From Proteobacteria bacterium 005FR1 (GTDB lineage: Bacteria; Pseudomonadota; Gammaproteobacteria; Pseudomonadales; Cellvibrionaceae), in the NCBI GenBank assembly GCA_026192395.1, contig WACF01000001.1, positions 738,977 through 802,976 of the forward strand: DNA of 64,000 bases, read 5' to 3'. The notes below the pieces were generated by a model, which saw only the letters and a program-made list of their open reading frames with translations, was not told the origin of the DNA and did not search any database. How positions within the stretch are numbered: position 1 is the first letter of the stretch; each line of letters opens with the position of its first letter. Of the stretch, positions 25,288 to 48,547 are shown piece by piece. The translations under genes and the position numbers were made by a program.

Positions 25288-26994
25288 TCACTGTTGTGGT
25301 TGCGGAAGTCGCTGGAGATTTTGCTGTCCTCCCTGTTGAAACTGTTGGTCCTGCTGGAATTGACCCTGCTGCTGACCAGACTGAAGCTGGCCCTGCTGCC
25401 CTTGCCCGAATTGCCCGCCCATGGGGCTTATGTCCAGACTTGCCATAGTCTGCGTGGTCAGCGTCCCGGTCGGCTCCAGGCCACGCGTCCGCTGGTAGTG
25501 CTGTATGGCCTGGCTGGTCTGCTGGTCCCAAGCTCCATCGATTTGGCCGGGATCAAAGCCGCGCTGGCCAAGCGTCGCTTCTACCTGTCGCACGGTTGCG
25601 GGACTCGCCCACAAAGCCGCGCCAGCGCCCGCTGCCTGCTCCTGAGCCCATTGCTGCTGGTTCTGCCCACCTTGCCCGAGTTGTTGACCCTGCTGTGCGC
25701 CCTGTACTCCGGCAGCCATCTGCTGGTTACCGGTTTGCTGCTGACCGATTTGGCCCTGCTGAGATGGCTGTTGCTGAAGATTCTGTTGCCCCGTTTGCCC
25801 GAACTGCTGTCCGGGCTGAAACTGCTGTTGCGACTGCTGTCCACCGGCCATTTGCTGATTGCTAGCGGCCTGCTGCTGACCGAGCTGTCCCTGCTGCGAG
25901 AGTTGTTGTTGAAAACCCTGCGTACCAGCCGCGCCCTGTTGCTGTTGTCGTTGTTGACCCTGCTGCTGTCCCGCTGGACTCAATTGCGCAAGAGGTTGTT
26001 GTGTCTGCTGGTTTTGCTGCTGAAAAGCCTGCTGCGGTGACATCTGCTGCTGTTGAAGTGGTTGCTGTTGCTGCGGCTGTCCTTGGAACCCTTGCTGCCC
26101 GGCCGTGCTGAACTGCGAAAGTGGCTGCTGTGTCTGCTGACCCTGGCCCTGAAAACCCTGTTGCTGAGGCGAAATCTGTTGCTGCTGGGAAGGTCCTTGC
26201 TGTTGAAAACCTTGTTGTTCTGCCATACCCAACTGCTGACCCTGCTGAGAAGGCTGCGTCTGCTGAAACTGCTGCTGACCGGGCTGAGCGAACGGCTGTC
26301 CGGACGCAGCCTGCAACTGACCGGCCTGGGCCTGCTGCTGATACGCCCCCTGCTGTCCGGTGCCAGCCTGACCCAGCTGCTGACCCGCGCCGAAAATCTG
26401 CTGGTTCAGGCCGAGCTCTGCGATCAGGTTGGCATCCGGCTGGCCAGTCGGCTCGAGGTTATTGGCCGCCTGGAAATTTGCCGCCGCCTGCTGCGTTTGC
26501 TGATTCCATTGACCCGAAACAGGCGCGTTGTAGCCTGCCTGACTCAGCGCCTGCTGGATCTGTCGAACGTAGGCGGAACTGATGTAGACGGGAACACCCG
26601 GTCCCTGTACAGATTCCTGCTGCCACTGCATGTCCCCGGACTGAGCGAGTCCCTGCCCCTGGAGAACATTGGTGGCGCCGAGCGCATTGATGGTATCGAT
26701 GGTTGGTGTACCCGTGGGAGTGATTCCCCGAGCCTGCTGAAAAGCACGTAGTGCCTGGGCGGTCTGGTTGCTCCACTGTCCGCTCACATTGCCGGCGTTG
26801 TAGCCGAGGTTGTTCAGTGCTGACTGAATCTGCCGAAGCCCGGCGGTACTCAGGTAAATCGGTGCACCCTGTGCCTGCACGAATTCCTGGGTCCACTGCT
26901 GGTCGCCGCTCTGGCTACTCGCGCCCTGTTGGGCCAGTGCCGAGGTCGCACAGAAAGCGGACGCAGTTGCTGCGAGAATGTATCGCTTGTTCAT
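25288..26994 (-). CDS. Secreted Gln-rich protein with three peptidoglycan-binding repeats
   Basis: A 568-residue exported protein. Signal peptide: MNKRYILAATASAFCATSALA. Two PG_binding_1-like units follow (about residues 41-108 and 131-197), then roughly 280 residues of low-complexity sequence dominated by Gln with Gly, Ala and Ser, and a third unit near 485-550. Each unit has the form [I/L]Y[L/I]S-x3-[VL]RQIQ-x2-L-x3-GY-N/D-A-G-x-[VI]-x-G-x-W-x3-T. The units are preceded by a W-x-QE motif. Start: ATG 26994, with GAGGAAGAC before it. No catalytic domain is present. A paralogue with the same plan is at 44642 and a short one is divergent at 27422. The role is unknown: wall-anchored scaffold or matrix protein is inference. 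Confidence 0.82.
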   Translation of the reverse strand: MNKRYILAATASAFCATSALAQQGASSQSGDQQWTQEFVQAQGAPIYLSTAGLRQIQSALNNLGYNAGNVSGQWSNQTAQALRAFQQARGITPTGTPTIDTINALGATNVLQGQGLAQSGDMQWQQESVQGPGVPVYISSAYVRQIQQALSQAGYNAPVSGQWNQQTQQAAANFQAANNLEPTGQPDANLIAELGLNQQIFGAGQQLGQAGTGQQGAYQQQAQAGQLQAASGQPFAQPGQQQFQQTQPSQQGQQLGMAEQQGFQQQGPSQQQQISPQQQGFQGQGQQTQQPLSQFSTAGQQGFQGQPQQQQPLQQQQMSPQQAFQQQNQQTQQPLAQLSPAGQQQGQQRQQQQGAAGTQGFQQQLSQQGQLGQQQAASNQQMAGGQQSQQQFQPGQQFGQTGQQNLQQQPSQQGQIGQQQTGNQQMAAGVQGAQQGQQLGQGGQNQQQWAQEQAAGAGAALWASPATVRQVEATLGQRGFDPGQIDGAWDQQTSQAIQHYQRTRGLEPTGTLTTQTMASLDISPMGGQFGQGQQGQLQSGQQQGQFQQDQQFQQGGQQNLQRLPQPQQ

Positions 26995-27421
26995 GATGTC
27001 TTCCTCTTCCATTGAGCAATGAGTAGATTTTTTTTGAGTTTCGAACTCAGGTTCGAATGCCCGCTGCCCATCGCAACCCATGTGCCAGAAGAAGCACGTT
27101 CATAAGGCGCAGCCGCCATCTGCACGGAAATCTCTCCATTCAGCGGCGTAAATCAGGTCTGCAATTCCGCCCCGCGGATACACGTCGCTAGAAGAATCAA
27201 AAACGGCTGGACCGGAGCTGCATTTTCTACACGTCCGCAGCGAAGGACGCACCGAATGAACACTGCGCGCAGGCCGCAGTTTCCGGTCATGTCGGGTGAC
27301 GCGGCCGACGCGGCATGGGTTCGCGGCGTCCAGCGCGAAGCCTTTGGTCTGGATGCTGCTTGTGGCTGAGAAAAGCCCCGAGTCAAACGCCGCTAAAGGA
27401 TTCAGCTGAAATGAGGCAGTT
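26995..27421. other. Divergent promoter region between two peptidoglycan-binding protein genes
   Basis: This 427-base gap separates two divergently oriented paralogues. Short open frames here (up to 129 codons on the minus strand) have no ribosome sites or family features and look random. I could not identify promoter or operator elements confidently. Confidence 0.4.
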
Positions 27422-28306
27422 ATGGTCGACGCCGCGCAATGCCGCCCCCGTGCAATCCAGGTTTTGCTGATTACTGCTGTCACGATCACAGTGATGATGA
27501 ACGGGCACGGTCAGCCACTGACTCAGGAGCAAGTGAGCGGATCAGCGTCACCGATTTATCTAAGCCCCGCGTCGGTTAGGCTGATTCAGCAAACTCTCAA
27601 TCGTCAGGGGTTTGATGCAGGTCCCGTTGACGGAATCTGGGGGGAGCTGACACGGGGTGCTGTACAAGCGTATCAGCGTTCACATACGCTGGAGCCGACC
27701 GGAACGCCGACCGTCTCATTCATCGCTGCGCTGGGCATTGCAATCATCAACAGAGAGCCTGAACAGATGCGCGATGTTCAGGATCAACAGTGGGTCCAGG
27801 AGTACACACGAGGCCCCGGAAAACCGCTCTATCTCAGTCCCGCCCGCGTGCGCCAGACTCAGAAAACGCTCGCCGAACTGGGCCACGACCCGGGCGAAAT
27901 CGATGGAATCTGGGGCGCCGCAACCAGAATGGCCGCCGGCAATTTTCAGCGGACCCGAGGACTCGAGCCCACCGGCATGCCGACGCTCGACCTGCTTGCC
28001 GCGCTCGGTTTGAACGTATGGTCTTCGCCGAGCCATTCCGATGAGCAGTCCTGGCAATGGAAGCAGGAAGCGGCGACGGGTCCCGGCACGGTACTGCGCG
28101 CGAGTCCGGCCTTGGTGCGAAGAATCCAATTGATGCTGGCGAAAGACGGCTTTGATCCTGGCGAGATTTCAGGGATATGGGATTCTCGAACGGCGAAAGC
28201 GGCAAGAAACTATCAACGTACACACGGACTCGAACCGACGGGAACGCTCACGACTGAGCTATTGAGGTTGTCTGGCAGTGCCCTTCCGACGGAGATTCGC
28301 AAGTGA
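27422..28306 (+). CDS. Exported protein with three peptidoglycan-binding-like repeats
   Basis: A 294-residue protein with a hydrophobic N-terminal segment (AIQVLLITAVTITVMM, probable signal or anchor) and three successive PG_binding_1-like units at about residues 42-102, 135-196 and 215-280. The consensus matches the Gln-rich paralogue: YLSPA-VR-x-[TI]Q-[KQ]TL then GIWG-x2-T and LEPTGTPT. Unlike its relatives it lacks the long glutamine linker. No enzymatic domain is visible. It is divergent from the gene at 25288 and likely shares its regulatory region. Start ATG 27422 has a weak GAGG site. Confidence 0.78.
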   Translation: MVDAAQCRPRAIQVLLITAVTITVMMNGHGQPLTQEQVSGSASPIYLSPASVRLIQQTLNRQGFDAGPVDGIWGELTRGAVQAYQRSHTLEPTGTPTVSFIAALGIAIINREPEQMRDVQDQQWVQEYTRGPGKPLYLSPARVRQTQKTLAELGHDPGEIDGIWGAATRMAAGNFQRTRGLEPTGMPTLDLLAALGLNVWSSPSHSDEQSWQWKQEAATGPGTVLRASPALVRRIQLMLAKDGFDPGEISGIWDSRTAKAARNYQRTHGLEPTGTLTTELLRLSGSALPTEIRK

Positions 28307-28317
28307 CAGTCGCGCAC

Positions 28318-28342
28318 AAAAAAGGCGCCAAGGCGCCCTTTC
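28318..28342. terminator. Hairpin between convergent genes
   Basis: AAAAGGCGCC-AAG-GCGCCCTTT forms a stem with a single bulge and flanking A and T runs, placed between the genes ending at 28306 (plus) and 28371 (minus). It could terminate transcription from both sides. Confidence 0.6.
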
Positions 28343-28370
28343 GTTGACTTCATCACAGCTGCGTTTGCGA

Positions 28371-29708
28371 TCACTTCATCTTTAAAACGACGATGTCGTG
28401 GTTGAGCGGATCGGTGGCTTCGCGAATCTCTTTGACCTGCTCGACAGTAACCGGCGATGCATCATGGCCCCAGGCCTTACGCATGAAGGTCACCACATCG
28501 GCGATTTGCTGGTCGTTCAGCAATCCGCGGAAGTACGGCATGTCGTAGGTTTCCGGCTCGCCGTCAACGACGACGCGCAGCGAACCATTCAGAGCCAGGT
28601 TGATCAGCGATGATGGATCGGGATCCATCACCACCGGGTTGCCCGCCAGCGGCGGCATGAATTCGCCGTGACCACTACCGTCATAAAGGTGACAGGACAC
28701 GCAATACTCGTAGTAGGTTTGTGAACCGGTCTGATCGAACTTGAAGCTCGCCAACTGCTGCGCGGTGGACGGATCGTACTCCCATTTGGGGGTATCCTGC
28801 TCATGTACCACGGGCAGCGACTTCAGGTAAACCGCCATCGCCCGCAGGTCTTCGTCGGTCATGTACTGGGTGCTGTTGTTGACCACTTCCACCATGGTGC
28901 CGAAGGCACTACCCCAGCGGTTTTTGCCGGTCTTGAGGAATTTGACGATGTCATCCTCCGTCCAACGGCCGAGGCCAACGTTGTGGTCACCGGTGAGCGG
29001 TGATGCGGACCAGTGATCCAGCGGCGAGCCGGCCAGGAAGTCGGAGTCGCTTTCATCCAGACCTTTCTCCTGGAACAGCAGACCACGGGGCGTATGACAG
29101 GCGCCGCAGTGGCCGAGGCCCTGGGTCAGGTAGGCGCCGCGGTTCCACAATTCGTCCTTGCTCGGGTCGGGCTCGAAGCGCGCGTCATCCAGAGTCAGGA
29201 AATTCCAAACCGCCAAGGGCCAGCGGGCGCTCATCCACTCGGGGATTTCGTTGGCGGCATTAGCCTGTTTGACGGGCTTTACCTCGTTCATGAAGAAGTC
29301 ATACATCGCTCGCATGTCTTCTTCAGTGATCTTGGCGTAGGAAGGATATGGCATTGCCGGATAGAGGTGGTGACCGTCTTTGGCGACACCCAGGCGCATG
29401 GAGCGGTCGAAATCCTCAAAGGTGTAGTCGCCGATTCCGGTTTCCTTGTCGGGCGTGATGTTGGTGGTGTAAATCGCACCGAGCATGGGAACGGCCATCT
29501 TCAGGCCACCGGCAAAAGGCTCGCCGCCTTCAATGGTGTGACATGCGGCGCAATTGCCCACTCTGGCCAGATATTCACCGCGAGACATTTGTTCGCCGCC
29601 GGTCATTGCTGCACCCTCGGCTCCCTCCCCCTGGGCCGCTCCCTGGGCGAACAGGACGGGCGCTGAAACCGTTAGCGCTACGGTCAGAAAGGCTTTGGAT
29701 AGATTCAT
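28371..29708 (-). CDS. Triheme cytochrome c, dehydrogenase-partner type
   Basis: A 445-residue exported cytochrome with signal peptide MNLSKAFLTVALTVSAPVLFA and three CXXCH sites at about residues 53-57 (CAACH), 201-205 (CGACH) and 336-340 (CVSCH). This spacing matches the membrane cytochrome subunit of periplasmic alcohol, aldehyde or gluconate dehydrogenases. No dehydrogenase gene is adjacent, so it is an orphan here. Start: ATG 29708 with GAAGGATAACA; the longer open frame has no ribosome site. Possible role: passing electrons from a distant dehydrogenase to the quinone pool or the act-cox chain. Confidence 0.85.
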   Translation of the reverse strand: MNLSKAFLTVALTVSAPVLFAQGAAQGEGAEGAAMTGGEQMSRGEYLARVGNCAACHTIEGGEPFAGGLKMAVPMLGAIYTTNITPDKETGIGDYTFEDFDRSMRLGVAKDGHHLYPAMPYPSYAKITEEDMRAMYDFFMNEVKPVKQANAANEIPEWMSARWPLAVWNFLTLDDARFEPDPSKDELWNRGAYLTQGLGHCGACHTPRGLLFQEKGLDESDSDFLAGSPLDHWSASPLTGDHNVGLGRWTEDDIVKFLKTGKNRWGSAFGTMVEVVNNSTQYMTDEDLRAMAVYLKSLPVVHEQDTPKWEYDPSTAQQLASFKFDQTGSQTYYEYCVSCHLYDGSGHGEFMPPLAGNPVVMDPDPSSLINLALNGSLRVVVDGEPETYDMPYFRGLLNDQQIADVVTFMRKAWGHDASPVTVEQVKEIREATDPLNHDIVVLKMK

Positions 29709-29960
29709 TGTTATCCTTCCCATTGGCTTATTATGAGTAGCGCTACAGTGTAATTGAGAAAACCGGGCGGTGCTATGGCTTTTAGGCCGCGCGGTCGGGC
29801 TCTTTCCCACCGCTCAATTGCTTCCAGACAATTCTTTACGCTTTGCCGACCTGGTCAGCTGCTCCGCCACTCGGGCAGGTCGCTCTACTACATCCTTGCA
29901 CTGGTACACACATTGCTTAGCGCCAAGGATGAGCTATCGCCAAGATCAAGCGGAGTTGGC

Positions 29961-31562
29961 ATGACCAGCGGAGACAATCGGAGCGCCCGAGGAAAGCTGC
30001 GGCTTCTCTACCGGCTCGAAGCCTCCCTGGAAGCCCCGATGTTCGTACTCGCCCTGGTCTGGCTGTGGCTGTTCGTGGTTGAACTGACCGCCGGACTGAC
30101 GCCCCTACAGCAACGCATCGGCACGGTGATCTGGATCACTTTTATCGCCGAGTACCTGTTGAAGCTCGCAGTGGCACCTCGCAAGATCCCTTATATCCAA
30201 AAGAATCTGCTGACGCTGATTGCTCTGGTCATTCCTGCATTCCGCGCCTTCAGACTACTGCGGGCGGTGCGACTGATGCGCTCCGCCCGTGTGGTGACCT
30301 CGACGCGTTTTGTCCGCGCGCTGACCTCCACTCGCCGGCTGCTGCGGAATCTGGAGGAAGTTCAGGGCGAGCGCCCTTCGCGGGAAATCAATGTGGGTAC
30401 ATTGCTGTTCCTCAGTGGGCACCTTGATGTCGAGACCGTCCGAGGGTTTACCAGCAGGCTGACAGCCGCGGCGAAGACAGAGCTCGATCGCGCCAGCGGT
30501 GCGCGGTGGCAATTCCATCCGCCCCGTGAACTTGGATTGGAATCGGAATCACCACAACGCCCTTCCGCCTTTCTCGATGAGGCGAGCCGCGAGATGGCCA
30601 ATGGGCCCTTCGACCTGATCATCGTAATTACCGAAGGTGTTCTGGTTTCGCGTCGGCAGCTTGTGCAGCCGGGGCTGGCGTCTCCGACTGCGCGCTGCGT
30701 TTGTCTGTCACTTCCCGCTCTGACAAAGACCGGTCGCAATCGCCCGCCCCGCTCCTTGGACGATCAGACCGTAAATTTTAACGGCACCGCCTTGCTGCTG
30801 CACATGCTTGGTCATCTGCTGGGCCTGGATCACAGAGAGCGAAACGCGAGTGAAGTGATGGCGCCCTTTCGCTGGCGAGAGCTGGATGCGGCCACTCCCC
30901 GCTTCAGCCAGAGTGAAGAACGGGCCCTGAAGTTGCGAAGCCGACAATTACCGGAACGGGAGCTTCGCGGCAGTGGTCCTTTGGCAAGCCTTGTTTTTCA
31001 TTTTGTAATGATACTGCGTCACCCGAGAGAGGTGCTGGTCCCGCTGTTTCGCAGCAAGGCCTTCTTCCTGCCCTTCTCGCTGCCCGGACTCGCCACAGCC
31101 GCCGTTGCGCCAACGCTCATTCTGGTCTTCAGCGCTGAGACATGGGATGTGGGACTGAACATGAGCAGTGGCATCGCTGCGCTGTTTGCAATTCTCATTG
31201 TGCTGCTCGCAAGCTTTTATCTGGTGCGCATCCAGTCGCTGTTCTTTCCACGCAAGGAAAAACAAACCGTTACCGAACACCTGGCCGTAGCCAACGGCGT
31301 TGTGTTCCTGAGCATGTTGCTCGCTTGCCTTGGTCTCTTTGTGATGGTGGTCGCGCTGATGCTCGCCATACAGCTTTATGTTTTTCCGGAAAATTTGATG
31401 CGGACATGGCCGACGCTGACCGACCCCGAAATCGGCTGGGGCGATCAACTGCGTCTGGCGGTCTTCATTGCGACCGTGGGCGTTGCCACCGGCGCGCTGG
31501 CCGGTGGCCTCGAGAATCGGTCGGTGATTCAGCAGCTGGCCCTCTTCGAGGATGTACCCTAG
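29961..31562 (+). CDS. Voltage-sensor-like membrane protein joined to a degenerate metzincin-type domain
   Basis: A 533-residue protein of unusual architecture. The N-terminus has helices resembling S1-S4 of a voltage-gated ion channel: an acidic S2-like helix (ITFIAEYLLKLAV, about 59-71) and an S4-like segment with Arg at every third position (FRAFRLLRAVRLMRSAR, about 94-110). No pore helix or selectivity motif follows. A soluble domain then contains HMLGHLLGLDH (281-291) and a downstream SEVMAPF, closely resembling the metzincin HExxHxxGxxH zinc site and Met-turn, but the catalytic Glu is Met282. The C-terminus has about four more helices (from 365). Start: ATG 29961 with CGGAG spaced five bases. 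The next gene is 16 bases downstream. Confidence 0.78.
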   Translation: MTSGDNRSARGKLRLLYRLEASLEAPMFVLALVWLWLFVVELTAGLTPLQQRIGTVIWITFIAEYLLKLAVAPRKIPYIQKNLLTLIALVIPAFRAFRLLRAVRLMRSARVVTSTRFVRALTSTRRLLRNLEEVQGERPSREINVGTLLFLSGHLDVETVRGFTSRLTAAAKTELDRASGARWQFHPPRELGLESESPQRPSAFLDEASREMANGPFDLIIVITEGVLVSRRQLVQPGLASPTARCVCLSLPALTKTGRNRPPRSLDDQTVNFNGTALLLHMLGHLLGLDHRERNASEVMAPFRWRELDAATPRFSQSEERALKLRSRQLPERELRGSGPLASLVFHFVMILRHPREVLVPLFRSKAFFLPFSLPGLATAAVAPTLILVFSAETWDVGLNMSSGIAALFAILIVLLASFYLVRIQSLFFPRKEKQTVTEHLAVANGVVFLSMLLACLGLFVMVVALMLAIQLYVFPENLMRTWPTLTDPEIGWGDQLRLAVFIATVGVATGALAGGLENRSVIQQLALFEDVP

Positions 31563-31578
31563 GTTCTTTGGAGGTTTG

Positions 31579-32181
31579 ATGGAGTGGTTTCTCGACAATG
31601 CACAGGCAATATCCGCACTGGCATCCGCCGGCATGCTGGTCATTTGGAGCATGTACGCCTGGCTTTTCTATCAGGAATTTCGCCGGCAGCGGGGTTCGCA
31701 GTTGTTTATACACGAAGGCGGCAGCCAAGGCCCAAATGCCACCTGCATGCTGGTTAATCTCAGTAAGGAGCCGATCCACGTACTCTGCTCGATGGCCGCC
31801 TATGGCGATGAGACTGTGCAGCTTCACGATACCGAGAAAACCGACGGAGCAGGTCCGATCAATCGAACCAAACAGGGTCCATTGCAGATGGGTGAACTGC
31901 TGGAACTGGGCTCGTTCAAAAGAATCTGCCAAGCGCTGAATCTGCCGCAGAGTAGCGGCAGTGATGAAATCTCAGAGTTCGAAATCCGAGTCGTCGGTAT
32001 TCATGGCTTTCGGGAATGGCCGGTCGGAGCAAGGCGTCGTTTTCAGATCGATCACAAGACGTCGGAAATCTGGCCACTCACCGAACGTACCGAGCAACTG
32101 CGCAGCAAGCGGCACGCGGCGGAAGTCCGAAACTGGATCGCCAGTTGCCGGGCCAGAGGGCTGAGCGACGAGGGGGGCTAG
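31579..32181 (+). CDS. Membrane-anchored protein of unknown function
   Basis: A 200-residue protein with one N-terminal transmembrane helix (ISALASAGMLVIWSMYAWLFY, about 11-31) and a soluble domain. I do not recognise a family. The soluble part contains MLVNLSKEPIHVLCSMAAYGD, suggesting a beta-sandwich-like fold. Start: ATG 31579 with GGAGG at 31570-31574. It lies just downstream of the voltage-sensor/metzincin-like gene and is probably co-transcribed with it. Its stop codon shares the palindrome CTAG with the stop of the convergent antiporter gene. Confidence 0.72.
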   Translation: MEWFLDNAQAISALASAGMLVIWSMYAWLFYQEFRRQRGSQLFIHEGGSQGPNATCMLVNLSKEPIHVLCSMAAYGDETVQLHDTEKTDGAGPINRTKQGPLQMGELLELGSFKRICQALNLPQSSGSDEISEFEIRVVGIHGFREWPVGARRRFQIDHKTSEIWPLTERTEQLRSKRHAAEVRNWIASCRARGLSDEGG

Positions 32182-33437
32182 CACTGGCCCCCGCCATCAG
32201 CGGCGGAAAACATGCGGCGAGTCAAATAGGTACTGCTGACCCCGTGGATCACCACTGAGGTCGCGACCAGAAAACTGGCCACCGGCCATAGATCAGGAGC
32301 GCCTTGCATACCCGAATAGCTCAACGCGTAGAAGATGGTCGCCGCCCCGATCGGCCCGAACCATCCCGCAAAAGCAGCTTCGTTTCGCTTTTTCAGAGAT
32401 GGCAGCAGCGGGCTCAGTGCGAGCCAGAGTGGCAGGCGGCGAACCAACAGGATGGCGATCGCAAAGGGTAGCAATGTTTCGATTTGTTGAAGCCATTCGT
32501 TCAAAGGCAACACGATGCCGAGAGAGATAAAAAAAGTGAAGTCCGCAAAGCGACCGACGGCCTGGCGGAACTCAAACTGCCGCGTGGCGTCCCCGGCCGG
32601 GAAATGGCTCGACATGGATACGCTGGCGAAAAATACCGCCAGTAGGCCGTCCGTATCCATGACCCTTGCAATCGCCAGCGTGGCAAGTCCGGTAGCAAGT
32701 GCGAGAGGAAGCATCGACTCTTCGTCAGCCCAGTGTTTTTCGCGACTCCAGCTGTGAAGGCGCCCGGCAAGTGCGCCAATGACGAGTCCTATAAGAATAG
32801 CCACCCCGATTTCCCACAGGATTCCAGTCAGCAACCATTCGGAAAACGCTGCGCTCGGCTGCGTGTGCCGCAACAGCTCCACCGGCAGAAGTACTAACGC
32901 CAGAGCGGCACCATCGTTGGATCCGCTTTCAAGCACAATCAAGTCACCGACCCGGCGCGGAACTCGCTCGCGCGCCAGTCTCCCGGTAACTATCGGACTT
33001 GCCAACACCGGATCGGTGGGTGCGAGTACAGCGCCAAGTAGCAGAGCACCGAGGAGCGCATAATCGAATACCCAGTACGCCAGGGCTGAACTAATCAACC
33101 ACATCCCCGCCATCCCGATGGTGAGAACGATCAGAAGTTCAAGAGCATGTTTGCGCACACAGCCATGCGGAAGTCTCAGTGCGGCGCCTACGATGGCCAC
33201 CGCGAGAGTGATGCGAGCCAACTCCGTCAGCATGAGTGTGGCGGTGGAACCAGGCGCGATGTCGAGGGAAATCGCGTCGGTCACGAATGGACCGATGGCA
33301 GTGCCGATCAGCAGCGCGATGATCGGCTCGGAAAGGTGCAGGCGGTAACGGAAATAGCCCGCACTCGCACTGGTGAGGATGATCGCCAGTGCGACGACGG
33401 CGAGCATCGAATAAAATGTCTCTACCGCTGGCGTCAC
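32178..33437 (-). CDS. CPA1-family Na+/H+ (cation/proton) antiporter
   Basis: A 419-residue membrane protein with about twelve helices, of the NhaP/CPA1 type. Family motifs include GAVLAPTDPVLASPIVTG (helix with the TDP motif) and LIVLESGSNDGAALAL, which carries the conserved ESxxND-like ion-binding Asp. It exchanges Na+ or K+ for H+ across the inner membrane. Start is GTG 33437; GGGAGAGCAGGAGC lies upstream. It is shorter than many CPA1 members and lacks the cytoplasmic C-terminal domain. Together with the Mrp operon it points to a salt- or pH-stressed habitat. Confidence 0.88.
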   Translation of the reverse strand: MTPAVETFYSMLAVVALAIILTSASAGYFRYRLHLSEPIIALLIGTAIGPFVTDAISLDIAPGSTATLMLTELARITLAVAIVGAALRLPHGCVRKHALELLIVLTIGMAGMWLISSALAYWVFDYALLGALLLGAVLAPTDPVLASPIVTGRLARERVPRRVGDLIVLESGSNDGAALALVLLPVELLRHTQPSAAFSEWLLTGILWEIGVAILIGLVIGALAGRLHSWSREKHWADEESMLPLALATGLATLAIARVMDTDGLLAVFFASVSMSSHFPAGDATRQFEFRQAVGRFADFTFFISLGIVLPLNEWLQQIETLLPFAIAILLVRRLPLWLALSPLLPSLKKRNEAAFAGWFGPIGAATIFYALSYSGMQGAPDLWPVASFLVATSVVIHGVSSTYLTRRMFSAADGGGQC

Positions 33438-33453
33438 GCTCCTGCTCTCCCGG

Positions 33454-33978
33454 TCATCCGAACTCGTCTTTGCCGGTCAGCGACAAGTCGCCGGCAGTTC
33501 CTTTTCTAATTATTGAAAATCGTCCGTCACATTCCAGGACGATAGCTTCGACCAGGTCCATGGATCCCAGACCGCGATTACGGGCCACCATCTTCAGATC
33601 GTCCTCGGTCACCCGCTCTTCGAGCATGGCCGGCCGCAGGTACTGACCACGGTAGAAGAGAAGACTGGGGCCGGCCATGACCAGGCTGTGGACCCGCGCG
33701 GAGCGCACCTGCAGCCAGCTGATCAGGAACTGCAGGGTTATCAGCAAAACAAAGGCAGCCAACGCTTCTGCCAACGCAACCTGGTGGGCGGTAAGGACTC
33801 GTCCGAAGGCTGCGCCAATGGCGACTACGACCACGAAGTCGAAGGCGTTCAGACTCGCCAGGGTGCGTTTACGACTTAGGCGCAGCAGCAGCACGATGGA
33901 AAAATACGCCAGGGTTCCCACCACCAGGATGCGAGCGATCGGCTCCCAGCCGTTGTACCACCAAATGACCTCAGTCAT
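33454..33978 (-). CDS. DUF421/YetF-family membrane protein
   Basis: A 174-residue protein with three N-terminal helices followed by a soluble DUF421 domain (GPSLLFYRGQYLRPAMLEERVTEDDL). The motif SLNAFDFVVVVAIGAAFGR in helix two is typical of the YetF/YcaP family. The exact function of the family is not established. Start: ATG 33978 with GGAGAAG. It ends 17 bases before the CPA1 antiporter gene, and the two are probably one operon. Confidence 0.85.
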   Translation of the reverse strand: MTEVIWWYNGWEPIARILVVGTLAYFSIVLLLRLSRKRTLASLNAFDFVVVVAIGAAFGRVLTAHQVALAEALAAFVLLITLQFLISWLQVRSARVHSLVMAGPSLLFYRGQYLRPAMLEERVTEDDLKMVARNRGLGSMDLVEAIVLECDGRFSIIRKGTAGDLSLTGKDEFG

Positions 33979-34017
33979 TCCACTTCTCCTGCTTTCCGAA
34001 TCACCTGATGGGCGCGG

Positions 34018-41023: not shown

Positions 41024-41161
41024 AATTCCGCCTTTTGCTATTCTGTTCAGGTCAACGATCTGTGTGGGAGATTATCAGACGAGTCGCCGCCATCCGCATT
41101 GTCCTATGTCACTCATTGGCTCTTAAGCCTTGCGCCAACCGGTTTTTCCTCTGGCTGGCGT

Positions 41162-42625
41162 TTACTCTTGATAGCCTGGTGGCACCGCAAAGCCATTGAT
41201 GAGGTCGTCTAGGTGACGCGCGAACTCCAGACAGCTCATATCCTCCAGATAAGGTCCGACAATCTGCACGCCGATGGGCAAACCGCTCGAGCCCGTGCCC
41301 AACGGAATCACGGTTGAGGGCAGGTATACGCCACCAACCAGACCGACCCATACCAGAATGTCTGTATAGGGGGTCGGCTTGCCGTTGATTTGAAGCTGAC
41401 GCTCGTGAATCGGATTGGAGTGGTCGTGAGGAAAGGGCAAGGTGTTCGTCACGGGGCAGAGAAGTATGTCCACGTCCTTGAAGAACTCTGCCCAGCGCTG
41501 GCGCATCTGCAATCGCTTTTCGTGAGCAGCGAGCCAGTCGCCGTGGCTCTGAGTGGCGCCGCGGGCAAAACGTACCTTGTAGCTGCGGTCGTCCGGGCCG
41601 GCTTCCGCCGCGATACTGCGCTGTTTCTCGAAAACCCGCTCGGGCATACCCGAGCCGATCGCACCGATTAGCAGGCTGTAATAGTTGCCGTACGCTTCCG
41701 CGAGTTCGATGCCCGCGGGCCGCGCGCTTTCGTCGACATCAACGCCCGCCTCGCGAAGCTTTGTCACGGCCAGTTGCAGGCGTTCGACGATTTCGCCTTC
41801 CACCGGACAGGCCGGATCGTCCAGCCAGGCCGCCACCCGATAGTCCTGCAGGCGTGTATGCCGGGCCGGCGGCAACTGCAGCTTCCAGCCGGTCGCGTCG
41901 TCGCTATCGGGGCCGGCGGTCACCTCCAGCGCCAGCTGCAGATCATCAACGTTGCGCGCCAGCGGGCCCATCACGCCAATGTCCGGACGAGTCAGTGAGC
42001 CGGGAGGCCCGGGGATGTGACCGCGCGCAGGGACCAGATCGAAGCTGGGCTTGTGCCCATAAACGCCGCAAAAACTTGCTGGTGTCCGGATCGACCCGCC
42101 GATATCGCTACCGTACTCCAGCGGTGTGAGCCCGGCCACCAGTGCCGCCGCCGCTCCGCCGGAAGAGCCGCCCGGAGTTCGTTTGGGGTCCCAGGGATTG
42201 TTGGTAGTGCCGTAAATCTCGTTGTAGCTCTGCAGATCGCCCGCATACAGCGGTACGTTGGTTTTACCAATGATAATGGCCCCGGCGTCGATCAGACGCT
42301 GTGCCGCCACCGCATCGTGATCCGGGCGATGGTCGCGCAACTCCGTTGCCCCGGCAGACGTGGGCATGCCGGTCACCTCGTAAGTTTCCTTGATCGTCAT
42401 CGGCAGCCCGTGCAATGGACCCCAGCTTTCCCCTCGTGCGGTGGCCTGATCCGCCTCCCTCGCCCGCTCTCGCGCCCGGTCTGCATCCAGATAAATGACC
42501 GCATTCAGATCTGGATTGAGTCGTTCGATGCGAGCCAGCATGGCCTCGAGCGCGGCCTCGCTGGTCAGTTCACCACGCTGGATCATTTGGACGATTTCAC
42601 GAGCGGAACGGTAGGCTAACTGCAT
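41162..42625 (-). CDS. Amidase-signature family amidase
   Basis: A 487-residue enzyme with the complete Ser-cisSer-Lys triad: Lys79 (MTIKETYEV), Ser154 in GGSSGG and Ser178 in SDIGGSIRTPASFCG. Close to GatA in architecture, but no GatB or GatC is adjacent and the substrate is unknown; many relatives hydrolyse small amides. Start: ATG 42625 with GGGAGACTCCCC upstream. Length is within the usual range. It lies upstream of ectB with a 138-base gap, so co-transcription is uncertain. Confidence 0.88.
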   Translation of the reverse strand: MQLAYRSAREIVQMIQRGELTSEAALEAMLARIERLNPDLNAVIYLDADRARERAREADQATARGESWGPLHGLPMTIKETYEVTGMPTSAGATELRDHRPDHDAVAAQRLIDAGAIIIGKTNVPLYAGDLQSYNEIYGTTNNPWDPKRTPGGSSGGAAAALVAGLTPLEYGSDIGGSIRTPASFCGVYGHKPSFDLVPARGHIPGPPGSLTRPDIGVMGPLARNVDDLQLALEVTAGPDSDDATGWKLQLPPARHTRLQDYRVAAWLDDPACPVEGEIVERLQLAVTKLREAGVDVDESARPAGIELAEAYGNYYSLLIGAIGSGMPERVFEKQRSIAAEAGPDDRSYKVRFARGATQSHGDWLAAHEKRLQMRQRWAEFFKDVDILLCPVTNTLPFPHDHSNPIHERQLQINGKPTPYTDILVWVGLVGGVYLPSTVIPLGTGSSGLPIGVQIVGPYLEDMSCLEFARHLDDLINGFAVPPGYQE

Positions 42626-42748
42626 GGGGAGTCTCCCGGTTAAGGCTTTTCTGATCAGATCAGACGAAAGAAGATTCCCGAGTGTAACGATTCGCTAAGT
42701 GGCCGGCGAGTCGCGTTGCGATGGGCGGACAGAAAGCAGGCAAGCTGA

Positions 42749-43201
42749 TCAAAGGGGATACGACTCGCACAAGCTCTGTACTTGGCTCCGGGTGGCGTCG
42801 ACGTGTTGCTGTATTTCGGCGACTACGTCTTCGATGCCCTTAGTCCAACCGGCATCGCGGGCACGCTGGATCACAGCTTCGAAATGATCTTCGCCATCGA
42901 GGCGCTGCTGGAGAATATCGCGGATCTCGTCGCGGGACATGCTCGCATGCATTCGATGGAAGAGCTTCTCAACGCTCTCGCGGTCCTCATCGGGTGCCTT
43001 CGGCAAGTCGCCTATGGACTGAATCGCTTGTCTGAGCCGCTGCACCAGACGATCACGCTCGTCGGCGATCGCCCGCAGCTTGGCACTGACCTCAAGCCCC
43101 TCGAGAAAGTCGGCGCTGTCGCGGTAGTGGTCGGCTGTCTTTTCGCTCTCTACCAGCAAGTCGTTGAGAGCCACCTGTTGATCAGTTCTGAAAATGCTCA
43201 T
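42749..43201 (-). CDS. DUF2383/ferritin-like four-helix protein
   Basis: A 150-residue all-helical protein. Pattern of helices with charged faces (ALNDLLVESEKTADHYRDSADFL, then SVEKLFHRMHASM and EDHFEAVIQRARDA) resembles the DUF2383/PA2169 ferritin-like family, although canonical iron-ligand pairs are only partly visible. It is probably a small stress-related cytoplasmic protein. The ATG at 43201 shares its A with the stop of the lipid-kinase gene ending at 43201, so the two are coupled. Confidence 0.6.
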   Translation of the reverse strand: MSIFRTDQQVALNDLLVESEKTADHYRDSADFLEGLEVSAKLRAIADERDRLVQRLRQAIQSIGDLPKAPDEDRESVEKLFHRMHASMSRDEIRDILQQRLDGEDHFEAVIQRARDAGWTKGIEDVVAEIQQHVDATRSQVQSLCESYPL

Positions 43202-44175
43202 CAGTGGGTTCCGCTCCTGATAGTGTCCATTGCCGCGCCCTGTTTTGGCGGCGCATATACGGTGAGAGCCTGCGGGATGATTTCAAGTTTCGCCGGCGTG
43301 TAGGTCACCAACTCACCATCCGCGTGCACCTCCAGCGGTTTGGCGGTCACTACCTCGATTTTTTTGCCACACTTGCTGAAGGTATTTTTGGCAAGGCTTT
43401 GCCTGCCCAGCCGCAACAAGGGAGCGAGAAGAAACAGCTTCCAGTTCGGTTGCGGTCTGATGCTGTAAAGGCACAAATCGCCGCTATCGATCTCCGCATC
43501 GTGGTCGACGACATTGCCGCCGCCATAGTAACGGCCGTTCCCGATGGTGAGGTGAATCGAACGCTCATGGAAAACCTTCCCGTCCACAGTAACCTTCACT
43601 TTAAAGGCATTCTGTTTCGCGACCGAAATCCAAAGTGCGCGCAAATAGCTGAACACACCCCAGGCCTTCTTTATGTCCTTGGTCAGATGATGAGTAATCT
43701 TGGTGCCCAACCCAATGTTCACCGCGTTGAAAAAATAGTGTTCGTTTACGACGCCGAGATCGATTCGCCTTAACTGGTTCTCCGTCACCAGCCTGCCGGC
43801 AGCTTCCAGGTCGTCGGAAATGGATAGTGAACGCGCCAGATCGTTGGCGGTACCCAGCGGAAGAATCGCCAGCGGCTTGTTGTGCTGATAGACCGAAGCG
43901 GCCGCCGAGCTGACGGTGCCATCGCCGCCGGCGACTATCACCAAGTCCAGGTCGTCGCACATGGCCTCAAGGTTTTGTGCACATTCCTCCGCACTTTGCG
44001 ACTCGCGAACGGTGACGTCGTAGCCGGAATCTCTGAGCAGTTCCAGGACCGCCTCGAGATTTGCCTCGGAGCCGCGTCGACTGTTCGGATTGATCACCAA
44101 CAGCGCCTTTTTTTGCGCCGCAGGCGCGGGCCTGTTCTCGCGATGGTCGATCCCGCTTGTCGGCTTGATGGCCAT
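43201..44175 (-). CDS. YegS/DgkB-type lipid kinase
   Basis: A 324-residue diacylglycerol-kinase-catalytic family protein. Signature motifs: INPNSRRG near residue 28, IVAGGDGTVSSAA near 80 and LPLGTANDLARSL near 103. A beta-sandwich C-terminal domain follows. Such enzymes phosphorylate lipids or sphingosine-like substrates; the substrate here is not predictable. Start: codon at 44175 with GGAATTACG. No signal peptide is seen. It overlaps the DUF2383-like gene by one base. Confidence 0.85.
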   Translation of the reverse strand: MAIKPTSGIDHRENRPAPAAQKKALLVINPNSRRGSEANLEAVLELLRDSGYDVTVRESQSAEECAQNLEAMCDDLDLVIVAGGDGTVSSAAASVYQHNKPLAILPLGTANDLARSLSISDDLEAAGRLVTENQLRRIDLGVVNEHYFFNAVNIGLGTKITHHLTKDIKKAWGVFSYLRALWISVAKQNAFKVKVTVDGKVFHERSIHLTIGNGRYYGGGNVVDHDAEIDSGDLCLYSIRPQPNWKLFLLAPLLRLGRQSLAKNTFSKCGKKIEVVTAKPLEVHADGELVTYTPAKLEIIPQALTVYAPPKQGAAMDTIRSGTH

Positions 44176-44641
44176 ACTCGTAATTCCACGTGTTCACAGG
44201 AAGTTATGCATACGCCTCACATTGAGCTTGCCTCCGAGAGATGATGCAACCACCAGGCCAGCGCGGACCCTTCCAATCTTTCGGGTGGAGCCAATCTTCC
44301 TCATCCGCGTTTCCGAGGCTCTTCAGAACAATAATACGAGTTAGCGATAGTTGCCATCTCCCTGTAAAGCTTTGCAAGAGCTAGTGCTCGCCTGCGCGCG
44401 ACGCGCAGCTTCTCCCACATTGCTCGTCTCTTCATGGCCGTTGCGACAGATCAAAAAAGCGAGATTCGGCGTCATTCTGCCGGAGCTCTGCCTGCTTCTT
44501 CGGTGAAGTGGCATATGCGTTGCGAAGCCCGAAGCGCACAGCTGATGTGGCGCAACTCGTCTTCGGGTGAAGAACACCAGGAAGCTACGGTCGCGCCCTT
44601 CAGTTTCATTCTCGATGGAGAGTAAAATGAAGGAGCAAACC
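44176..44641. other. Upstream region of the Gln-rich peptidoglycan-binding gene
   Basis: A 466-base non-coding gap separates the minus-strand lipid kinase from the plus-strand gene at 44642. Open frames here (up to 106 codons on the minus strand) lack ribosome sites and look random. The only clear element is AAGGAG at 44630-44635, the ribosome site for the following gene. Promoters could not be assigned. Confidence 0.4.
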
Positions 44642-45682
44642 ATGATTAACAAACCGCTCATTGCAGCAGCTGTATCAGCGGCTCTGTTTGCGACACCGGC
44701 CCTTGCCCAGCAGCAGGGTCAGCAAGGACAGCAGGGTCAGCAACAGCCTCAAAACCAGCAAATCACCCAGGAGAAGGCGCAAGACGGTACCGAGATCTAC
44801 CTCAGCACCGCGTCGGTCCGACAAATCGAACAGGCTCTGAATCAACAAGGCTATAACGCCGGCAATGTAGACGGGCAATGGGATCAGGACACGACCAAAG
44901 CTGCCCAGGATTATCAAAAGTCAAAGGAAATGGAACCAACCGGCACACCCACTATTGAGCTGGTCAACTCTCTGGGCCTCAGCCAGATCATCAAGGGCCA
45001 AAGTCAGCAACAAGGTCAACAACAGAGCCAGCAATGGGCTCAGGAGGAAGCACAGGGCGAGGGCACTCCCCTCTACGTGAGCACCGCTTACGTTCGTCAG
45101 ATTCAGCAAAAGCTGAACGAGAAAGGCTATAACGTTGGCGCCACCGACGGTCTCTGGGGCGAAAGCACCAAGCAAGCGGCCGCCAACTTCCAGCAGGCAG
45201 CCGGTCTAGAGCCGAGCGGACAGCTAACCACCAATCTTCTCGAGCAGCTCGGGCTTGCGCAACAGATCATGCAAGCCGGTCAGCAAGGCAAGCAAGATCA
45301 GAAGTGGGAGCAGGAAACTGCTCAAAGTGAAGGTACACCGCTGTATGCAAGCCCTGCCACGGTTCGCCAAATCGAAGTGAGCCTGAACAAAGAGGGCTAC
45401 GACGCGGGCAATGTGGACGGATCCTGGGATGAGGACACAACCGCTGCGATCGAGCGATACCAGCGCTCCCGCGGTCTTGAGCCCACTGGCACACTGACTA
45501 CCGAATCGATGGCTGCTCTCGACATGAGCGTTCTGGGCGGCGGTCAGGGTGGCCAGGGTCAGCAACAAGGTCAACAGAGTCAACAAAGCCAACAAGGTCA
45601 GCAGCAAGGCCAGCAAAACCAGCAGCAACAGCAGCCGCAGCAGCAACAACAGCGTCAGCAGCAACAGAGGCAGCAGCAATAG
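44642..45682 (+). CDS. Secreted Gln-rich protein with three peptidoglycan-binding repeats
   Basis: A 346-residue exported protein. Signal peptide MINKPLIAAAVSAALFATPALA. Three PG_binding_1-like units lie at about residues 50-112, 142-206 and 231-296, each with YxSx2-x-VRQI and a GxxDGxWxxxT core followed by LEPTG or MEPTG. They are linked by Gln-rich segments and the protein ends in a Gln-rich tail of about 46 residues. The last unit ends like the Gln-rich protein at 25288 (RGLEPTGTLTT, then LD and GG), so the two are paralogues. Start: ATG 44642 with AAGGAG spaced six bases; upstream ATG 44627 has none. No catalytic domain. A terminator follows at 45745. Confidence 0.83.
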   Translation: MINKPLIAAAVSAALFATPALAQQQGQQGQQGQQQPQNQQITQEKAQDGTEIYLSTASVRQIEQALNQQGYNAGNVDGQWDQDTTKAAQDYQKSKEMEPTGTPTIELVNSLGLSQIIKGQSQQQGQQQSQQWAQEEAQGEGTPLYVSTAYVRQIQQKLNEKGYNVGATDGLWGESTKQAAANFQQAAGLEPSGQLTTNLLEQLGLAQQIMQAGQQGKQDQKWEQETAQSEGTPLYASPATVRQIEVSLNKEGYDAGNVDGSWDEDTTAAIERYQRSRGLEPTGTLTTESMAALDMSVLGGGQGGQGQQQGQQSQQSQQGQQQGQQNQQQQQPQQQQQRQQQQRQQQ

Positions 45683-45744
45683 CTTGTCGATTCGGTGAAA
45701 AACGCGGAGGTTTGCGTCAGAGTCTTCGAGTTATCACCGGCGAG

Positions 45745-45772
45745 GCAGGCGTCCCACTCGGGGCGCCTGCTT
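45745..45772 (+). terminator. Intrinsic terminator candidate
   Basis: An 11-base stem with one G-T wobble (45745-45755 with 45760-45770), loop ACTC, followed by TTTG. It lies 62 bases after the stop of the peptidoglycan-binding gene, so that gene may be monocistronic. Confidence 0.6.
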
Positions 45773-46096
45773 TGCTATAGCGAAACAGCGCTCCAGTCTT
45801 ACTTCCGCCATTCCTTGTAAATGGTGGACACTCAAGTGCAGCAAAAACATTGAAACACTCCCGCTCGTGCATACCCGTGACCCACGAGCGAAACAAATCG
45901 TCGTTTACATCTCTGTTTTGACCTCCCAAAGCCCCCGCCCCGAGCTGCCGACGGCTGTGTCTCGACATATCGCGCCAAGGTGGATCGGCGGGCCACTGGT
46001 GTGATTATTGCTCCGACTTGGCCAACCGCGACAAGGTCAATTTGCTTTGTCGCTGGACTTATTTCGATGCACCCGACGCACAGGAGAGGAAGCAAG
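45773..46096. other. Non-coding region before the PRC-barrel gene
   Basis: This 324-base stretch contains no supported gene. Short minus-strand frames at 45717-45968 and 45832-46095 have no ribosome sites. AGAGGAAG at 46085-46092 is the ribosome site for the gene at 46097. A promoter is expected here but was not identified. Confidence 0.4.
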
Positions 46097-47023
46097 ATGA
46101 AATTGACTTACATCATCCGGAAATTGCAGGGACGGCCTTTGGTACTGAGCCTGGGCGCCAGCGGCATCTTACTCGCCGCCTCTGGAATGACTTACGCACA
46201 GCAGCAAGAGCAGCAAACCCAAGAACAGATTCCTCAGGAAATCGCACAGCAGGAAGGCACCGACATCGTCGTTGAACAGCAGCAGCCGCAAGTTCAGGTG
46301 GAACGCGCTCCGCTGGAAGTGATCGCGGAGCAAAAAGAAATGGACGTACAGGTGGAAACCGGTGAGCCGGAGGTTTCTATTCAGCAACCTGAACCGGAAG
46401 TGATGGTGCAACAGCAGGAGCCGGAGATCCAGATTCGGCAATCCGAGCCGGAAGTTGTTGTGGAGAGCGCCGAGCCACAAGTGGAAGTTCGACAGGCAGA
46501 GCCACAAGTCCAGGTGCGCAGTGCAGACCCGATCGTCCGGGTAATTACTGTCGACGAACAGGGGCAGGAGCAGGTCTCTGAAATCGAAGCACAGCCGATG
46601 CAAAACCAGCGAAGCCAGCAGGCTCAGGCACAACAAAGACAGACCCAACAGCCCCAGCAACAGCAGCAGATGGCCCAGGACCTGATGCAGGTGAATGTTA
46701 CAGAGCTGGGACAAAAAACGGTGGTGACCAGCCAGGGTGAAGAGCTTGGCAGCGTCGAGGATATTGTCATTCAGCCCGATCAAGGTCAGGCCGGCCTGGT
46801 GGTATCCACTGGCGGTATTCTGGGCATTGGGGCAGAGCAAATCCTGGTGCCGGCAGATGAAACGATGATGCAGGGCGACCAGATCGTCTGGCAGACCCAG
46901 CAGTCCCCTGACCAGCTTGCAGAGCAGTCGAAGTACAATGAGCAGGGATACGTTTCTGTCGCTGAAGCGGAAGGCACGCTAGGAGATGCGCGCAACGAAG
47001 CCATGCAGCGGGCGCAGCGCTAA
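46097..47023 (+). CDS. Exported protein with nine-residue repeats and PRC-barrel
   Basis: A 308-residue protein. Signal peptide: basic start then LVLSLGASGILLAASGMTYA (about 15-34). After a Gln/Glu-rich stretch, six exact nine-residue repeats run from residue 91 to 144 (P-[EQ]-[VI]-x-[VI]-x-x-x-[ED]; for example PEVMVQQQE, PQVEVRQAE). A Gln-rich linker follows, then a PRC-barrel-like domain at about 195-290 (VVTSQGEELGSVEDIVIQPD, then GLVVSTGGILGIGAEQILVPADE). Start: ATG 46097 with AGAGGAAG. The next gene starts 48 bases downstream and shares repeats and PRC-barrel, so they form an operon. Function unknown; surface scaffold is inference. Confidence 0.82.
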   Translation: MKLTYIIRKLQGRPLVLSLGASGILLAASGMTYAQQQEQQTQEQIPQEIAQQEGTDIVVEQQQPQVQVERAPLEVIAEQKEMDVQVETGEPEVSIQQPEPEVMVQQQEPEIQIRQSEPEVVVESAEPQVEVRQAEPQVQVRSADPIVRVITVDEQGQEQVSEIEAQPMQNQRSQQAQAQQRQTQQPQQQQQMAQDLMQVNVTELGQKTVVTSQGEELGSVEDIVIQPDQGQAGLVVSTGGILGIGAEQILVPADETMMQGDQIVWQTQQSPDQLAEQSKYNEQGYVSVAEAEGTLGDARNEAMQRAQR

Positions 47024-47071
47024 TTACCCTCCGCCCGGACAAATTCGCCTCAAGACTGAAAGGAGTCAATT

Positions 47072-48547
47072 ATGCAACGCAGAGGAATCAAACTCACTCA
47101 GGGATTCGTTACAGCCAGTGCTGTCGGCCTTCTTATGACGGCATCCGCCTTCGTCAGCGCGCAGGGACAACAATCCCAACAGCAGCAGCAGCCGCCACAG
47201 TTTTCAGAACTGGACCAAAATCAGGACCAGCGCCTGAGCCAGCAGGAATTGCAGCAAGTTGCTCAGCGCCAAAATACCCAGGCCAGTGAACTTGTTAGTC
47301 AATATGACCAGGACGGCAACAACGTGCTCAATCAGCAGGAATATCAGCAGCTGAGCCAGAGCATGCAGATGCAGCAGCAAATGCAGCAGGCGCGGCAGCA
47401 GCAGGAGCAGCAGCGTCAGCAACAGCAACGCCAGCAGGGGCAGCAGCAACAGACCCCGCAATTCTCACAGCTTGACCAGAACCAGGACCAGCGCCTGAAC
47501 CAACAGGAGCTGCAACCCCTGGCTCAACGTCAGAACACGCAACCCGACCAACTGATAAGTCGGTTTGACCAGGACGGCAATCAGGCTCTGGATCAGCAGG
47601 AGTATCAGCAGCTGAGCCAGAACATGCAGCAACAGCAGCAAGGCCAGCAGCAAGCCCGTCAACAAAGTCAGCAGCAAGGCGGCCAACAAATGGCTCAGAG
47701 TCAACAGGGCCAGCAGCAGGGCCAGCAAGGGCAGCAGCAACAAGCTCAGCAAGGCCAGGGCGGCACGGTGATCTACGTCCGCGAGAAGCCGACCCAGGTG
47801 ATCGTAAGTCGCCCTCCTGCCCAGATCACCGTCGATCAACCCCGCCCTGTCATCACCATCCGCACTCAGGAACCTCAGGTAAACGTTCAGCAAGGCGAGC
47901 CGCAGGTGTCGGTGACCCAACCCGAGCCGGAGGTCATGGTTCAACAGGAGCGTCCCGAAGTTGCGGTACAGCAGCAGGATCCGCAGGTCGTTGTTGATCC
48001 CGCTCAACCACAGGTTCAGATCAGCGAAGCACAGCCGCAGGTATTTGTGCAGGAAGCTGACCAGCCTCAGGTGCAAGTACAGCAACAGGAACAGCAACGT
48101 AGGCAGGAACAACAGCGCCAGCAGGCCCAGCAGCAGTTCCAGCAAGAACAACAGCGGCAGCAGGCTCAGCAGCAACAACAGCCGCAGCAGCAGCAATCGC
48201 AGCAGCAGCGTAACCTCTGGTCTGCACCTGTTTCCCAGCTGCGACAGTCACAGGTGACCGACGCTACCGGTAATCAGATGGGCCAGGTGGTGGAAATCGT
48301 CGTCCAGCAAGACGGTAGCCGTGCAGGTATTCTCGTTGAATCCCAGCAACAGGATGGCTACCGGTACATTCCGCTGTATCAGATCTCCATGCGCGGACAG
48401 CAGCTGATGGTCGAGTCACAGGCTAATATTTCCAATGTGACCGAGCAGGAGCTGCTTCAGCAGAACTTCAACCGCATTCCGGAAAGCCAGCGTCCGCTGA
48501 GCGACTACGTGTCTGTGGCTGAGCTGCAGCAGCAACAGCAGCAGTAA
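47072..48547 (+). CDS. Exported Gln-rich protein with EF-hands, nine-residue repeats and PRC-barrel
   Basis: A 491-residue exported protein. Signal peptide: residues 1-30 (GFVTASAVGLLMTASAFVSA). Four EF-hand-type loops occur as two duplicated pairs: 48-59, 79-90, 135-146 and 166-177, each with D-x-[DN]-x-[DN] and a Glu at position 12. A Gln-rich linker leads to eight nine-residue repeats (about 268-340) of the same kind as in the neighbour. After a second Gln-rich linker comes a PRC-barrel-like domain (about 386-475; DATGNQMGQVVEIVVQQDGSRAGI, then YRYIPLYQISM) and a Gln tail. Ca2+ binding is likely from the loops. Start: ATG 47072 with AAAGGAG upstream. A terminator follows at 48568. Confidence 0.85.
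   Translation: MQRRGIKLTQGFVTASAVGLLMTASAFVSAQGQQSQQQQQPPQFSELDQNQDQRLSQQELQQVAQRQNTQASELVSQYDQDGNNVLNQQEYQQLSQSMQMQQQMQQARQQQEQQRQQQQRQQGQQQQTPQFSQLDQNQDQRLNQQELQPLAQRQNTQPDQLISRFDQDGNQALDQQEYQQLSQNMQQQQQGQQQARQQSQQQGGQQMAQSQQGQQQGQQGQQQQAQQGQGGTVIYVREKPTQVIVSRPPAQITVDQPRPVITIRTQEPQVNVQQGEPQVSVTQPEPEVMVQQERPEVAVQQQDPQVVVDPAQPQVQISEAQPQVFVQEADQPQVQVQQQEQQRRQEQQRQQAQQQFQQEQQRQQAQQQQQPQQQQSQQQRNLWSAPVSQLRQSQVTDATGNQMGQVVEIVVQQDGSRAGILVESQQQDGYRYIPLYQISMRGQQLMVESQANISNVTEQELLQQNFNRIPESQRPLSDYVSVAELQQQQQQ

Follow-up and report, generated by a model that had tools for sequence, protein, structure and literature searches.

Peptidoglycan-binding domains (PGBDs) of the PG_binding_1 family (PF01471) are known from SltB2, SltB3 and SleB, and the PRC-barrel domain (PF05239) is known from RimM, the reaction-centre H subunit and the archaeal CdpB1/CdpB2. 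Five genes in the 64,000-nucleotide stretch of Proteobacteria bacterium 005FR1 (Cellvibrionaceae) that was analysed here, referred to as the window, encode proteins that carry one or the other of these domains and that we call P1 to P5. P1 to P3 have the sequence family and the predicted fold of the first group, in three copies each, and the likeness of P4 and P5 to the second group lies in a C-terminal PRC-barrel. An earlier note on this DNA had read the five as one extracellular scaffold; what it said of domain content, leaders and paralogy stood, and its single-system idea was not supported. The reading that we prefer, with a probability of roughly 0.55, is that P1 to P5 are two separately inherited and probably stress-linked modules of enzyme-free envelope proteins, exported, mostly acidic and in large part disordered, which stand together by chance of lineage.

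All five open reading frames listed in that note were found, each with an AG-rich, Shine-Dalgarno-like stretch upstream of its ATG, and a Sec-type leader is clear in P1, P3, P4 and P5 and weaker in P2 (both judged by eye). The two layouts that had been described, three peptidoglycan-binding units or nine-residue repeats with a PRC-barrel, are borne out by Pfam, by the repeat spacing and by the fold model of P5, and the profile searches with PF01471, PF05239 and the EF-hand gave matches, the P5 PRC-barrel alone falling below its Pfam cut-off. In the Pfam and NCBIfam scans, P1 to P5 do not reach the curated cut-off of any enzyme family, in keeping with the earlier claim. Also right was the paralogy proposed within P1 to P3 and between P4 and P5; P1 and P3 share the exact end RGLEPTGTLTT, and P2 has the variant HGLEPTGTLTT.

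The first module consists of the triple-PGBD proteins. P1 (25288–26994, minus strand, 568 residues) is a putatively exported protein with units at about 26680–26841, 26449–26574 and 25426–25599 and a long glutamine-rich linker separating units 2 and 3. P2 (27422–28306, plus strand, 294 residues), divergent from P1 and low in glutamine, has its units at about 27569–27733, 27845–28048 and 28103–28267, and P3 (44642–45682, plus strand, 346 residues), putatively exported as well, has units at about 44789–44995, 45065–45274 and 45335–45517 with glutamine-rich linkers and tail. Pfam finds PF01471 in three stretches of each protein, at 117.2, 136.6 and 131.5 bits for P1, P2 and P3 (cut-off 23), and a segment with W-x-QE and SPxxVRQ precedes most units. 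The P3 model (mean predicted local distance difference test score, pLDDT, 74.9) has three confident PGBD folds joined and followed by low-confidence linkers and tail. SltB2, SltB3 and the SleB N-domain are among its best matches in the PDB, none of which reaches E 0.001, and in a search with a sequence profile the chains of SleB and SltB3 are matched at E values as low as 2.7e-6. Two more specific families were rejected for P1, P2 and P3: HxsA (TIGR03979) at 82.4, 108.4 and 98.1 bits (cut-off 121.65), and the spore cortex-lytic enzyme SleB (TIGR02869) at 74.9, 84.2 and 93.0 bits (cut-off 236.5), the best stretches of the latter stopping by profile position 90 of 201.

The second module would comprise P4, P5 and three paralogues elsewhere in the genome, and appears to consist of a stalk, made of repeats or rich in glutamine, with a PRC-barrel close to its C-terminal end. 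In P4 (46097–47023, plus strand, 308 residues, putatively exported) the nine-residue repeats lie at about 46367–46543, followed by a glutamine-rich stretch and a PRC-barrel at about 46694–46885 that scores 36.0 bits against PF05239 (cut-off 21.2). P5 (47072–48547, plus strand, 491 residues) starts 48 bases after the end of P4, and given this gap the two may form one transcript; it too is putatively exported, and carries two EF-hand pairs, glutamine-rich linkers, nine-residue repeats at about 47846–48079 and a PRC-barrel at about 48230–48415 that scores 17.0 bits. Chains of P.[VIL].[VIFL] at an exact spacing of nine residues number 7 in P4 and 8 in P5, and none of 5000 residue shuffles matched either protein, the maximum being 2. 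The EF-hand part of P5 matches EF-hand_7 (PF13499) in two stretches at 54.2 bits (cut-off 30) and contains four canonical 12-residue loops (47213–47602, plus strand), namely DQNQDQRLSQQE, DQDGNNVLNQQE, DQNQDQRLNQQE and DQDGNQALDQQE at residues 48, 79, 135 and 166, each with Glu last. Membership of P5 in the lanmodulin (NF053806; 24.7 bits, cut-off 135) and XopAW (NF041410; 51.7 bits, cut-off 120) families was rejected.

The P5 model was built on an alignment of two sequences and has a mean pLDDT of 51.1, with the EF-hand part at low confidence and residues of about 381–480 in a block at 77–91. Its Foldseek list, taken as the best 50 of 256 matches, is led by structures that are PRC-barrels as far as their titles tell, such as the CdpB1/CdpB2 heterodimer, with a best E of 2.5e-3 (none reaching E 0.001) and target TM-scores up to 0.70; RimM and the reaction-centre H subunit are among the matches listed. 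A PRC-barrel fold for the C-terminal part of P5 is thus supported by the predicted model.

Four of the five proteins are rich in glutamine, as had been claimed, with fractions of 0.326, 0.251, 0.214 and 0.360 in P1, P3, P4 and P5 and 0.078 in P2; 37 other hand-picked genes of the window have a median of 0.033 and reach 0.080 at most. The codons are a mixture of CAA and CAG with no identical-codon run longer than 4, and a fresh CAG triplet expansion is therefore ruled out. The mature proteins are hydrophilic, with grand average of hydropathy (GRAVY) values of -1.02, -0.46, -1.24, -0.82 and -1.45 for P1 to P5, and their glycine contents are 13.9, 9.8, 11.5, 5.8 and 4.3%. Hydrophilins are defined by more than 6% glycine together with high hydrophilicity, which we rated by GRAVY, a measure that differs from the original hydrophilin index. 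It is conceivable, if unlikely, that the five are protectants of the hydrophilin or late embryogenesis abundant (LEA) kind, in which glutamine-rich disordered parts would shield envelope proteins under stress from drying or salt, with the folded domains serving only to position them. The hydrophilicity, the glycine of P1 and P3 and the neighbouring DUF421, DUF2254 and DUF1206 genes, which we take to be stress-associated, would fit such a role; the low glycine of P4 and P5 does not, nor does the finding that conservation in the triple-PGBD family lies in the folded units.

Whether the five belong together is better judged from their relatives. The triple-PGBD searches covered 58 relatives, 369 genomes of the class and 398 of the phylum, the genome of origin being counted in each. 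At E 1e-15 or better, a single other genome was matched in each of the two large samples. These are G178, with a 117-residue exported protein that has a single unit, and G545, with a protein of 783 residues that resembles a kinase, by eye, in its N-terminal part. Among 36 family relatives there is no strong match, the best being 7.4e-7. A first scan of contigs with P1 to P3 found no loci because its patterns depended on the W-x-QE stretch, and a second scan to which a Methylobacterium radiotolerans protein was added found 15 loci in 14 genomes (L038 and L041 share one genome): 11 of Methylobacterium or Methylorubrum, Microvirga roseola, Modicisalibacter luteus and a metagenome-assembled Desulfatitalea. 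The alignment of 14 rows (A6) excludes L044, L049, L050 and L051, which appear broken or incomplete, and keeps the M. luteus protein (L047), which is without a clear leader and has a shortened second unit.

Two M. radiotolerans plasmids encode such a triple-unit relative (WP_012329962.1 and WP_053622625.1), annotated as a peptidoglycan-binding domain-containing protein, which like P3 has a leader (by eye), three units and an EPTGTLTT end. It is 42–44% identical to P3 across 72% of P3, and is less enriched in glutamine; about 1 kb downstream of its gene lies one for an alcohol dehydrogenase. In a tree of 41 units, units 1, 2 and 3 cluster by position across relatives, with 8 label changes against a shuffled mean of 19.7 and a least possible 2, although near-copies from Methylobacterium strengthen the grouping and many forks lack resolution; this suggests that the triple layout is old. 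As a side observation, 12 loci (L034, L035, L039–L043, L045, L046 and L049–L051) have zinc alcohol dehydrogenase genes in the neighbourhood of the Methylobacterium triple-PGBD gene, and these are relatives of the window gene at 52893–54146.

The relatives of P4 and P5 have a different distribution. The source genome holds three further PRC proteins with predicted export: L015 (375 residues, glutamine-rich, with two EF-like loops by eye and a Pfam EF-hand below cut-off), L073 (223 residues, glutamine-rich) and L074 (271 residues, with one EF-like loop by eye and a PRC-barrel by our A2 profile). Elsewhere, members of the family and M. luteus again have exported proteins that combine EF-hand and PRC-barrel, as judged from their sequences. 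The EF-hand scores above a Pfam cut-off in L004 and L011 (both G030), L005 (G004) and L075 (M. luteus) and below it in L002 (G035) and L078 (M. luteus), as in L015; further cases in the family were seen by pattern or by eye. The PRC profile matches 14 of 143 family relatives and in none of them extends over the nine-residue repeats, and the loci read among these matches have repeat chains of 0 or 1. The two M. luteus proteins each have EF-hands, repeats and a PRC-barrel. Proteins with repeats and a PRC-barrel (repeat+PRC) that have no EF-hand occur in 6 of 397 other genomes of the phylum sample (G129, G716, G797, G777, G743 and G580), a count for which one locus per genome was read on the matched strand in all 28 other matching genomes, second matches being read in part. 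Further ones come from the class sample (G368) and from plasmids of two alphaproteobacteria, Pelagibacterium sp. H642 and Indioceanicola profundi; the plasmid proteins are annotated as PRC-barrel domain-containing, have a leader (by eye) and nine-residue repeats and show no EF-hand by eye. Scoring in the large samples covered the 4 or 5 best candidates of each genome, which makes absences there weaker. A further relative lies on a 13.5-kb plasmid of Paracoccus liaowanqingii that is typed as mobilizable (L136:5986–6972), so the repeat+PRC module can occupy mobile DNA.

The idea of one extracellular scaffold, in which triple-PGBD anchors would bind the repeat+PRC proteins and the EF-hands would gel with calcium and perhaps with an alginate-type exopolymer encoded about 7 kb downstream, can be weighed against these distributions. 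P3, P4 and P5 are adjacent on the same strand, the glutamine-rich character is common to both kinds, and alginate-type genes lie at 55961–63261 and beyond. Joint gain is possible as well, given that none of 143 family relatives matches over the repeats and none of 36 has a strong triple-PGBD match. However, P1 and P2 lie about 16 kb away, and related genomes mostly hold the two kinds apart. Among the 14 triple-PGBD genomes, repeat+PRC is clear in M. luteus, where the two genes sit on different contigs, and doubtful in Microvirga roseola, where the candidate has two repeats before the contig edge. In the other 12, which include all 11 Methylobacterium/Methylorubrum genomes searched, it was not seen; the PRC matches of ten end before the columns of the repeats (loci were read for six) and two have no match. 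Conversely, a triple-PGBD protein was found in none of seven other repeat+PRC genomes: G368 has no match in the triple-PGBD search, the PGBD matches examined in G716, G797, G777 and G743 are lytic-transglycosylase-like by eye, G580 has one two-PGBD protein that is exported and another that is larger, and G129 has an exported, glutamine-rich single-PGBD protein about 32 kb from its repeat+PRC gene.

Fisher tests against the background of 6 in 397 give p = 0.027 by genome and 0.006 by genus with both M. luteus and Microvirga counted, and p = 0.22 and 0.11, not significant, with M. luteus alone; they are post hoc and compare differing searches (A2 or A4 with scores for every candidate on one side, A4 with scores for the best 4 on the other). 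Since the Microvirga case is doubtful and the test without it is not significant, we dropped enrichment and do not claim it, though the modules may be modestly associated. The rare co-presence argues that the modules are separable, and the co-occurrence check that had been proposed for the scaffold comes out mostly against it. A single five-protein scaffold is not supported by these comparisons, and we regard it as quite unlikely. It is improbable, too, that P1 to P3 are regulators or decoys of peptidoglycan hydrolases that mask the wall sites of PGBD-bearing lytic enzymes: the family is common to lytic transglycosylases and SleB, and a catalytic domain was not found in P1 to P3, yet no annotated hydrolase stands next to the gene in the two M. 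radiotolerans plasmid loci, the loci with annotated neighbours.

Returning to two separately inherited modules, both are most likely made under stress such as salt, drying or stationary phase. General-stress promoters have the consensus GGAAC-N16-CGTT with a flexible -10 box (PMC7083833), and PRC-barrel genes of three alphaproteobacteria are included in a table of S. meliloti RpoE2/RpoE6 genes (PMC6180224), a general-stress table of S. melonis (PMC6599016) and a heat-shock table of M. loti (PMC3989490). When ten upstream regions of Methylobacterium/Methylorubrum triple-PGBD genes are aligned, two of them from plasmid copies and eight from contig loci, they show a GGAAC or GGAAAC box. The EcfG-type box GGAA[AC]{1,2}-N14-18-[CG]GTT lies upstream of 8 of these 10 genes, starting at -55 to -76, and of 4 of 109 other open reading frames in the same loci.

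Several observations weigh against this reading. The counts of the EcfG-type box are indicative only, since the ten sequences are related (the two plasmid copies are nearly identical and two loci belong to one genome) and the pattern was relaxed following inspection. Of 13 loci, 3 contain the strict form GGAAC-N15-18-[CG]GTT, with an expectation of 0.012 in 300 bases, and it is absent from the Microvirga, Modicisalibacter and Desulfatitalea loci. The box evidence comes from alphaproteobacterial genes and not from those of the source organism, and the PRC-barrel genes in the stress tables are likened to P4 and P5 by family name. Upstream of P1 to P5 neither a motif common to all five nor a shared promoter was found. 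The paralogue L074 has no EF-hand or PRC match in Pfam at E 0.01. A PG_binding_1 domain, finally, can exist without binding peptidoglycan.

With these points in mind, family knowledge and the anatomy of the proteins lead us to the following picture. P1 to P3, with three PGBD folds on flexible linkers, would probably tether to peptidoglycan at up to three points, the EF-hand head of P5 probably binds calcium, and the PRC-barrels of the adjacent P4 and P5 could pair. Some of these envelope proteins are thus probably wall-tethered and some calcium-binding, and both modules may act as passive spacers, wall stiffeners or a calcium-loaded, hydrated filler of the envelope. A much bolder version, to which we give little credence, is a calcium-responsive glutamine-rich matrix in which triple-PGBD proteins would tie the wall to EF-hand/repeat/PRC stalks that pair through their barrels and stiffen with calcium, possibly with the nearby alginate-type exopolymer, the modules travelling apart and being combined in few lineages.

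Other neighbours deserve brief mention. The alginate-type exopolysaccharide locus continues past the end of the window (L087:13–1674) and encodes a PilZ-HlyD protein, an alginate-lyase family protein, a glycosyltransferase 2, a nucleotide-sugar dehydrogenase and GMP_PMI, with one stretch that matches AlgG below its cut-off; beside calcium-binding motifs it is a suggestive neighbour and no more than that. Near the paralogue L015 lies a cluster that encodes a helical, a PF07332 holin-like and a DUF3618 protein (L088:6258–8684), and its genes match those that precede the repeat+PRC gene of the distant genome G368 (L084:239–2706). A 602-residue membrane protein at 29754–31562 contains HMLGHLLGLDH, presumably a metzincin-like zinc pattern with Met in place of the catalytic Glu, and tandem paralogous exported proteins at 49924–50610 and 50615–51334 have OB-fold-like and DUF5666-like stretches, with DUF5666 just under its Pfam cut-off in both.

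EF-hands with nine-residue repeats and a PRC-barrel, and triple PGBDs with glutamine-rich linkers, are exported architectures that recur in distant bacteria, and in the open-access literature, as represented by listings and a few passages, we found no description of the function of either. Should the EcfG link be true, they would provide a structural envelope output for the general stress response. What remains is that known domains are newly combined in two envelope modules that are inherited separately and probably linked to stress. Unlike SltB2, SltB3 and SleB, P1 to P3 have no catalytic domain, and they have three units, glutamine-rich linkers in P1 and P3, and the W-x-QE and SPxxVRQ segment, of which W-x-QE is mostly not kept in Methylobacterium. 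Compared with RimM, the reaction-centre H subunit and CdpB1/CdpB2, no RNA, photosynthetic or division partner was seen for P4 and P5, which instead carry a leader and a repeat stalk and, in P5, EF-hands.

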